Source of the DNA: an uncultured SAR86 cluster bacterium
GTDB lineage: Bacteria > Pseudomonadota > Gammaproteobacteria > Magnimaribacterales > D2472
Direction: 5' to 3'
Length of the DNA stretch: 34,041 nt
Assembly (NCBI GenBank): GCA_902591565.1
Contig: CACJBC010000001.1
Location: forward strand, 98,717 to 132,757
The notes under the pieces are model-generated. The model was not told the origin of the DNA and made no database searches. It saw only the letters and a list, made by a program, of their open reading frames with translations. Shown here piece by piece: positions 2,999 to 12,399 of this stretch; position 1 is the first letter of the stretch, and each line of letters starts with the position of its first letter. The translations under genes were made by a program, and so were the position numbers.

Positions 2999-3235
2999 AT
3001 GAGTAAAATATGTCAAGTAACAGGTAAGATACCACAGACTGGGAACAATGTTTCTCATGCTAAAAATAGAACAAAAAGGAAATTCTTCCCTAATCTACAT
3101 TCGCATAAATTCTGGGTAGAATCTGAAAATAGGTTTGTAAACCTTAAAGTTTCTGCAAAAGGCATGAGGATAATCGATAAAAAAGGTATTAGCGTTGTCC
3201 TCAAAGAACTCAGAGCTAAGGGCCAAAAGATATAA
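2999..3235 (+). CDS. rpmB: 50S ribosomal protein L28
   Basis: L28 is a basic 78-residue protein of the large ribosomal subunit. The start [20 protein letters not shown], the following [11 protein letters not shown] and the closing [15 protein letters not shown] match the bacterial L28 family (Pfam L28) over its full length. In most gammaproteobacteria rpmB is followed by rpmG (L33); here it is followed at once by a gene on the opposite strand, so the pair is broken. Its TAA directly abuts the stop of the convergent monooxygenase gene with no base between. It has no recognisable Shine-Dalgarno, and the nearest promoter predicts almost no leader. Confidence 0.97.
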
Positions 3236-6249: not shown

Positions 6250-6430
6250 TTTCATTACATTCTGGTTCATTCGCTAATGTGTTATTAAATTTGAACCGAT
6301 ACTATTAAATAGGTGATATTCCACTATCATTGTTGTGCAATACCTATGTAGGGAAGCCTGATTTGATAAGAAATTCACCACCTGACCTTTCGGTTCAGGT
6401 AAAACACATGGCGGTGATTTGGTTTGTTAG
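6250..6430 (+). ncRNA. ssrS: 6S RNA (SsrS)
   Basis: 6S RNA binds sigma-70 RNA polymerase holoenzyme by mimicking an open promoter and down-tunes housekeeping transcription in slow growth. It lies exactly between zapA and ygfA, its conserved place. Visible structure: a long terminal stem, with ATGTGTT (6277–6283) pairing with AACACAT (6403–6409) and CGC (6272–6274) with GCG (6411–6413), then G·U-rich pairs outward to about 6262 and 6422. A 3'-side hairpin at 6380–6400 (ACCTGACC-TTTC-GGTTCAGGT) equals the CCTTGAACCAAGGGTTCAAGG hairpin of E. coli, followed by the GGCGGTGAT block. Ends are approximate. The primary sequence is much more AT-rich than in E. coli. Confidence 0.85.
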
Positions 6431-11548: not shown

Positions 11549-12076
11549 TTAAAGTATTTCCTCAATTGCAGAGACTAATTCAGGAGAATCTGGCTTAACA
11601 CCAGATTTAAATGTTGAAACAACTCTTCCCTCTTTTGAAATTAAATACTTATTAAAATTCCATGTTGGCTCAACACCAGATTCCTCTTTTAATTTTTTAT
11701 AAAAAGGGTGCGCCTTTTTCCCTCTTACTTTTACTGTTGCGAACATAGGAAATTCGACGCCGTATTCAGTAGAACAGAATTCAGCCACAGAACTTTCTTT
11801 TGAATACTCTTGAAAGAAGTCTCTTGATGGTACACCTAAAACTACAAAGTCATTGTCTTTATATTTTTCATATAGATTTTGAAGTCCAGAGTATTGATAA
11901 GTATAGCCACATCTACTGGCTACGTTCACCACTAACAATGTTTTGCCTTCATATGCACATAAATTTTGTGTTTCTGCAGAATCAAGTATTCGCATGTCAG
12001 AATTAAGAAGATTAGGACAGGCATGTATATGTTGGGCAACATATAGACAAAAAAGGCATAAGAAGATTTTTTTCAT
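11549..12076 (-). CDS. Exported glutathione peroxidase-family thiol peroxidase
   Basis: A 175-residue member of the glutathione peroxidase family, which reduces peroxides, often using thioredoxin in bacteria. Residues 1–19 look like a signal peptide, followed by ACPNLLN; the cysteine at 20 could be a lipid-modified Cys, though IHAC is a weak lipobox. The peroxidatic Cys is C56 in NVASRCGYT, and the Trp-Asn pair is W139–N140 in PTWNFNKYL. The usual FPCNQF/FPSNDF segment that carries the catalytic Gln is VPSRDF here. C40 and C101 remain as possible resolving cysteines. Most likely periplasmic. A TATAAT at 12088–12083 ends 6 nt before the ATG. A candidate regulatory RNA and a tiny ORF lie upstream on the same strand. 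Confidence 0.88.
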   Translation of the reverse strand: MKKIFLCLFCLYVAQHIHACPNLLNSDMRILDSAETQNLCAYEGKTLLVVNVASRCGYTYQYSGLQNLYEKYKDNDFVVLGVPSRDFFQEYSKESSVAEFCSTEYGVEFPMFATVKVRGKKAHPFYKKLKEESGVEPTWNFNKYLISKEGRVVSTFKSGVKPDSPELVSAIEEIL

Positions 12077-12103: not shown

Positions 12104-12190
12104 TTAAGCTATTGGACCTATTGCAAGAACAGATATTAAAAAAACACTTACTAAAATTACAGTTTCAAATAATTCTTTATATTTACTCAT
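12104..12190 (-). CDS. Putative 28-residue single-span membrane protein
   Basis: An ATG at 12190 opens a 28-codon frame ending in TAA at 12106–12104. The product has a short charged start (MSKYKELFE) followed by a run of about 17 hydrophobic residues (VILVSVFLISVLAIGPIA), a plausible single transmembrane helix. It lies between a terminator-like hairpin and the peroxidase gene, 27 nt upstream of the latter, on the same strand. No Shine-Dalgarno is seen. In AT-rich DNA such a frame can arise by chance, but a clean charged-head plus hydrophobic-tail peptide directly upstream of a gene makes it worth recording. I do not recognise a family. Confidence 0.35.
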   Translation of the reverse strand: MSKYKELFETVILVSVFLISVLAIGPIA

Positions 12191-12202: not shown

Positions 12203-12282
12203 AATTAAAAATGGAGGGACTGAGCCCTCCATATGATTCCAGAGTGTCAGCAAATCTAATAGGGGGAGAGGAGTGCTGACAT
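12203..12282 (-). ncRNA. Candidate small RNA or peroxidase leader with a C-rich loop
   Basis: Read on the minus strand, a strong promoter is followed at once by a perfect 8-bp stem, TGTCAGCA (12281–12274) with TGCTGACA (12252–12245). Its loop of about 21 nt contains CTCCTCTCCCCCTATTAG. After a 12-nt spacer comes a second perfect 8-bp GC-rich hairpin and a T-rich run, the shape of an intrinsic terminator. The loop is complementary to GGAG-type Shine-Dalgarno sequences. It may be a free sRNA of about 80 nt, or an attenuating leader for the downstream small ORF and peroxidase gene. I do not recognise a described RNA family. Support is structural only. Confidence 0.5.
12211..12232 (-). terminator. 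Intrinsic-terminator-like hairpin (minus-strand reading)
   Basis: ATGGAGGG and CCCTCCAT form a perfect 8-bp stem around a 6-nt loop. Read on the minus strand it is followed by TTTTAATTT; read on the plus strand it is followed by ATGATTCC, so only the minus direction looks like a terminator. The U-run is short, so termination may be partial. Confidence 0.55.
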
Positions 12283-12287
12283 GTATT

Positions 12288-12315
12288 ATTATATATATTT
12301 ATATTATATTATCAA
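12288..12315 (-). promoter_or_regulatory. Strong predicted sigma-70 promoter reading toward the small RNA and peroxidase gene
   Basis: On the minus strand TTGATA (12315–12310) and a perfect TATAAT (12293–12288) are separated by 16 bp. The expected start, about 7 nt beyond the -10 box, coincides with the first base of the TGTCAGCA stem. The surrounding region is extremely AT-rich, so extra -10-like matches occur, but the joint fit of both boxes, spacing and RNA start is good. Confidence 0.5.
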
Positions 12316-12399
12316 TAGTTTTTATAAAATAAATTTAATTTATTCATAATTATCGCTAAATGTGCGATTTTATAAGGATAAATATGCATATTTTTTATG

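Follow-up and report, generated by a model that had tools for sequence, protein, structure and literature searches.

The window analyzed here, a 34,041-nt stretch of DNA, comes from SAR86, a group of abundant ocean bacteria, and its family (f1) is probably GTDB D2472 (‘Suzuki’). On its minus strand, a predicted small RNA gene lies upstream of a peroxidase gene, with the following elements and neighbours:

12316..12331, minus strand: A/T block TTTATAAAAA located 5′ of the −35 element, UP-element-like with a putative role, including the conserved TTATAA
12288..12315, minus strand: promoter, TTGATA (12315-12310), 16-nt spacer, TATAAT (12293-12288), 11 of 12 matches in the scan
12207..12281, minus strand: predicted small RNA gene of ~75 nt, running from about 12281 to about 12207 (covariance model and covariation)
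12245..12281, minus strand: stem-loop 1, with an 8-bp stem of TGTCAGCA (12281-12274) and TGCTGACA (12252-12245)
12253..12273, minus strand: C-rich loop CTCCTCTCCCCCTATTAGATT, predicted pairing region (C-run conservation, pairing test against TonB receptor leaders)
12244-12233, minus strand: 12-nt spacer between stem-loop 1 and the terminator
12211..12232, minus strand: intrinsic terminator, ATGGAGGG (12232-12225) and CCCTCCAT (12218-12211) followed by TTTTAATTTA (terminator scan)
12104..12190, minus strand: open reading frame for a 28-aa membrane microprotein, a neighbour that would belong to the system only given read-through
11549..12076, minus strand: gpx, a neighbouring gene for an exported glutathione peroxidase (PF00255, 94.5 bits)

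Promoter, 8-bp stem, C-rich loop, 12-nt spacer, terminator and U-run were all found at the minus-strand positions given by an earlier note on this DNA. The loop of stem-loop 1 is 21 nt long, starts with CTCCTCTCCCCC and has the motif CUCCUCUCCCCC, while the terminator carries GGAGGG. The fold has a z-score of −2.8, and none of 200 shuffled sequences was equally stable. A promoter scan of the region returned 11 sites versus 15.7 ± 3.9 expected, the best being the one at 12315-12288, and a terminator scan found 1 versus 1.9 expected. Taken singly, this one sequence is only moderately above chance. No Rfam 15 family matched the window RNA at the gathering threshold, nor the RNA strand of five loci at E-values up to 5. 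The window also contains a 6S RNA at 6256-6429 on the plus strand (62.9 bits, cut-off 46.4).

A nucleotide search of 101 genomes recovered the RNA in 50, every one of them in the window's own family, and revealed another copy elsewhere in the genome from which the window comes. Using a covariance model derived from 39 sequences, with E < 1e-6 as a strong match, homologues of the same structure were identified in 95 of the 107 f1 genomes, many of which are incomplete. Lack of covariation in relatives, named in the earlier note as one observation that would speak against a small RNA, was not what we found, as both stems covary. In an alignment of 84 copies (81 distinct) fitted to the structure, 13 of the 16 base pairs are changed on both sides, i.e. 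8 of 8 in stem 1 and 5 of 8 in the terminator stem. Cells with a both-sided change number 89 versus 16.7 in shuffles, none of 500 shuffles reaches any of five covariation measures, and all slid controls are far lower. The same result comes from 39 copies aligned independently with MAFFT, with 10 such pairs and with values exceeding every shuffle for four of the five measures. Compensatory variants of stem 1 include GTCAGCA/TGCTGAC, ACCAACA/TGTTGGT, ATCGGCA/TGCCGAT and GCTAGCA/TGCTAGC. In almost every f1 copy, the C-run of the loop is preceded by CUCCUCU or a closely similar sequence, and folding together with the alignment places an exposed CCCC or CCCCC in the hairpin loop of nearly all copies. 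Because the loop is kept while the surrounding stem varies by compensation, it is likely the working part of the molecule. The GGAG arm of the terminator is nearly invariant among the 81 distinct copies, and several copies have short U-tracts.

The promoter is similarly conserved: TTGATA is present in 83 of the 84 copies, 73 of these 83 have an xATAAT −10 element at identical spacing, and the upstream alignment of 80 distinct copies displays conserved blocks TTATAA, TATTGATA, TATAA and TATAATA. Stem 1 starts 5-7 nt past the −10 element in 79 of 83 copies, so that the predicted start coincides with the base of stem 1. We also considered a Fur- or PerR-like palindrome at the −35 region and dropped it, since it is not preserved in the window's own copy. 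Computed homologues, covariation and promoter conservation, that is, the comparison across genomes rather than any single sequence, indicate that the minus-strand unit is almost certainly a genuine and old RNA gene. The ‘novel small RNA’ put forward in the earlier note is borne out in that it is conserved, covarying and absent from Rfam.

A diverged form of the RNA occurs in 20 of 21 genomes of f4, the sister family TMED112 (CHAB-I-7). D2472 and TMED112/CHAB-I-7 have a common origin in the published phylogeny (PMC11582366). The f4 form combines a GTCAGTC/GACTGAC stem, the loop CTCCTCTCCCCC, a GGGGC/GCCCC terminator and a similar promoter, TTATAA block upstream of the −35 element included. This ~75-base RNA family of two related SAR86 families was previously unlisted. 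A pattern scan of 84,980 species returned records nearly all of which belong to SAR86 or to unnamed Gammaproteobacteria; the few other matches (Streptomyces, Kribbella, Bradyrhizobium etc.) were discounted, their number being close to the chance expectation. When 274 genomes of the class were searched with the covariance model, just ~20-32-bit matches appeared, none of which was counted; among the best of them, the C-rich loop is missing from L093 and L096, and L095 shows CTCCCCC but no stem. The matches in family f3 (genera g16 and g19) and those inspected in family f2 are terminators without the loop, and the sites fitting a TTGATA...CTCTCCCC pattern in f2 and f3 are scattered and dissimilar; both sets were discarded. 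At the eight f2 and f3 gpx loci that were read, a YkuD-type gene abuts gpx and the RNA is absent between them. An exact match to the RNA was not found in viral contigs.

The RNA quite probably acts in trans through its loop. The fuller reading that we favor, and regard as fairly likely, is that of a trans-acting sRNA of ~75 nt whose loop blocks the ribosome sites of TonB receptors independently of Hfq. Transcription would start at about 12281 from the conserved promoter, which is of the sigma-70 type, and the terminator at 12232-12207 would end a transcript displaying the C-rich loop on its stem. The loop would pair with G-rich ribosome-binding sites, chiefly the GGGG(A) of mRNAs coding for TonB-dependent receptors, thereby barring ribosome entry, and we infer that, under some controlling signal, less outer-membrane receptor is made. 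In most lineages, some polymerases might read through into microprotein-gpx. Such repression would run without Hfq or ProQ, as Hfq was found in none of the 31 SAR86 genomes searched and ProQ in none of 16, the E. coli positive control having worked for both; this indirectly suggests that the action of the RNA would be independent of Hfq. CsrA (E. coli control positive) was found in the f2 and f3 samples, not in those of f1 and f4, and a role as a CsrA sponge through GGA motifs was therefore ruled out in f1 and f4.

Target samples comprised about 400 kb each of genomes G000, G007 and G064, the latter belonging to f2. Start-site pairing in two ~390-kb samples, carried out with no prior target list, gave best sites that included the G-run leaders of TonB receptor genes. 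We then collected TonB receptor genes (PF07715) from ten SAR86 genomes, choosing their starts by signal peptide and not by ribosome site. In five f1 genomes, GGGG is found at −25..−5 of 35 of the 68 receptor genes versus 25 of 697 other genes (p = 1e-25, a pooled value inflated by the partial orthology of receptors from related genomes), and the other-gene controls reach 6.9% at most when any possible start is allowed. The enrichment is significant within single genomes set against their own background (p = 3e-4 for G000, p = 5e-6 for G007). About half of the receptors are without GGGG; where present, the sites mostly end 5-9 nt upstream of the start codon. An example of a SAR86 receptor leader is GAATAGGGGGGGTTATTATG. 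The mean loop duplex energy is −10.7 kcal/mol for receptors versus −5.4 kcal/mol for other genes, it being noted that this first duplex and GGGG comparison set receptors of f2, f3 and f4 against the f1 background. With the real loop, the gap between receptors and other genes amounts to 5.4 kcal/mol, which none of 200 shuffled loops attained; the 16S tail gives a smaller gap of about 3.1.

The signal is confined to the receptor class. Over whole genomes, near-exact complements of AGGGGGAGAGGA show no excess (29 versus 35 for the reversed control), loop-complementary sites counted over all genes do not exceed those of shuffled loops, and a general all-gene enrichment is absent. G-rich motifs mark the starts of a defined class of genes, and f2 shows the same. 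These computed enrichments suggest, with moderate confidence, that TonB receptors are the main target class of the RNA. The proposal in the earlier note that the loop represses translation in trans at ribosome sites is supported in outline and can be sharpened to the GGGG sites of TonB receptors.

An explanation that we consider a real, if lesser, possibility is that the receptor GGGG constitutes a special ribosome site, i.e. a translation enhancer, unrelated to the RNA, whose partners would be other RNAs or a protein. It gains weight from f2, where a homologue of the RNA was not detected and GGGG precedes 7 of 13 receptors versus 12 of 375 other genes of f2 itself, so that the site either predates the RNA or does not depend on it. 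The 4G motifs of Xanthomonas have likewise been reported as translational enhancers, although enhancer and target roles are not mutually exclusive (PMC3771888). What speaks against this explanation is that the real loop outperforms 200 of 200 shuffled loops and the 16S tail in separating receptors. The G-run is thus an order-wide trait of receptor genes, which may serve as an enhancer, as the site of another regulator in f2 or as a site that the RNA came to use later. In the f2 genome G064, receptor leaders with GGGG are those of L323, L335 and L401-L407.

The genomic neighbourhood bears on a possible role in cis. In 67 of the 84 f1 copies, a divergent fadB-like gene flanks the RNA on one side and microprotein-gpx-rpiA on the other, with gpx on the same strand, and all four f4 copies examined have gpx and rpiA shortly downstream. 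The microprotein encoded between the RNA and gpx (24-33 aa, hydrophobic, pattern ..FELLxLVSIFISSVYAIxPxV, no Pfam family matched) is present in nearly all gpx-linked f1 copies and in one f4 copy. A further 16 of the 84 copies lie tail-to-tail (convergent) with an sbcB-like exonuclease gene, next to its 3′ end, and 1 is located elsewhere. These 16 free-standing copies have no co-directional gene just downstream, and most have the same loop, stem and promoter; the retention of stem, loop and, in most cases, promoter by copies with no gene to lead indicates that the RNA itself is under selection. Along with the promoter (83 of 84 copies) and the terminator, they give the RNA the sequence features of a free-standing gene. 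In three of the 16 (L131, L132 and L133, from the window's genus), the second copy near the sbcB-like gene looks degraded, with changes in promoter and loop.

Tentatively, the RNA could have a dual function, as an sRNA acting in trans and as a read-through leader of microprotein-gpx, which would tie receptor repression to peroxide defence. This reading overlaps and fits with the trans-acting sRNA that we favor; it accounts for the free-standing copies as well as for the gpx synteny across two families, and the short U-tracts of several gpx-linked copies would permit read-through. However, read-through is something that we infer, and small adjacent genes can stay syntenic without joint expression. 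It is unlikely that the RNA is instead a cis-acting 5′ attenuated leader of the microprotein-gpx transcript, in which a signal or a pseudoknot between loop and terminator would set stop versus read-through. The 67 f1 and four f4 copies just upstream of a same-strand gpx are compatible with such a leader, and on paper the loop CUCUCC could pair with the terminator arm GGAGGG, of which GGAG is nearly invariant; nevertheless, pairing with a C-rich loop is a property of every G-rich arm, making the pseudoknot unspecific, and the RNA is not always upstream of gpx, as 16 of 84 copies lack it and any other co-directional downstream gene while most retain loop, stem and promoter. The 5′ leader that the earlier note offered as an alternative thus fails for these 16 copies, and a second, cis role at gpx is possible. 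Finally, chance hairpins next to a chance promoter, a reading that the chance-level promoter and terminator counts of the region would allow, are refuted by covariation and by loop and promoter conservation across two families.

Judged by analogy with described systems, the RNA represents a new family within a known kind of sRNA, which would work like sX13, Yfr1/Yfr10 and ChvR and by sequence is a member of none of them. sX13 from the gammaproteobacterium Xanthomonas also has CCCC/CCCCC hairpin loops, represses via G-rich motifs near the translation start and can dispense with Hfq (PMC3771888). As a C-rich loop without Hfq is the sX13 pattern, an sX13-like action is proposed for the SAR86 RNA. 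Yet sX13 differs by three C-rich stem-loops and a 5′ region without structure, whereas the SAR86 RNA has a single C-rich stem-loop, right at its 5′ end, and a terminator, and the reported targets of sX13 are unlike those predicted here. Yfr1 of cyanobacteria carries the motif ACUCCUCACAC between two stems, unlike the SAR86 loop ACUCCUCUCCCCCUAU, and homology is not apparent; with a different motif located in a loop, a SAR86 host and no Rfam match, the RNA was not assigned to the Yfr1 family. The likeness is that Yfr1 and Yfr10 are short sRNAs from streamlined marine genomes, have conserved neighbours and carry an ultra-conserved motif, located in a hairpin loop in Yfr10; two porins, which are outer-membrane proteins, have been shown to be targets of Yfr1 (PMC6778093, PMC2190773). 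ChvR of Caulobacter is Hfq-independent and acts by pairing to repress a TonB-dependent receptor, with one of its sites at −20 to −10 of the start codon (PMC6237742). It differs by its sole reported target and two pairing sites, whereas a whole receptor class and one loop are predicted for the SAR86 RNA. ‘Cuckoo’ sRNAs bear CCUCCUCCC anti-ribosome-site motifs in hairpin loops that mimic the 16S anti-Shine-Dalgarno. sRNAs of this type, named in rhizobia (PMC10746234), belong to another bacterial class, and the SAR86 loop CUCCUCUCCCCCUAU differs in favouring GGGG over AGGAGG and has no Rfam match.

If the favored reading is right, the RNA would be a widespread regulator of the main uptake proteins of SAR86, in cells in which the usual RNA-binding helpers were not found, and it probably helps decide which nutrients SAR86 cells take up. 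A bolder and rather improbable extension is that, in the Suzuki/CHAB-I-7 branch, one C-rich-loop RNA serves as a global translational brake on the TonB-receptor regulon, cis-coupled to microprotein and peroxidase and chaperone-free, with none of Hfq, ProQ and CsrA found. The brake sites would possibly be those read by CsrA in the two CsrA-encoding families without the RNA at gpx. If true, this would represent chaperone-free control of nutrient uptake by a single RNA in one of the commonest ocean bacteria. The RNA is a ready probe for SAR86 metatranscriptomes and makes it possible to test directly how frequently RNAs with C-rich loops arose independently.

Two minor observations concern other locations. 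In 13 of the 16 genomes of the f3 genus g15, a hairpin GTCAGCATCTCTCTCCCCTGAAAACTGCTGAC with a CTCTCCCC loop lies between polA and engB, gene names that result from our reading of the proteins, and it is without a matching promoter (loci L104-L107, L115, L116 and L118). Spot 42 (spf) of E. coli is also located between polA and engB; the window RNA was not assigned to it, having no Rfam match, and only the g15 hairpin sits between these genes. The g15 hairpin might be a relocated homologue. Genome G015 contains a third copy of the RNA, at 3013-3090 on the minus strand of L051, in an unrelated neighbourhood.
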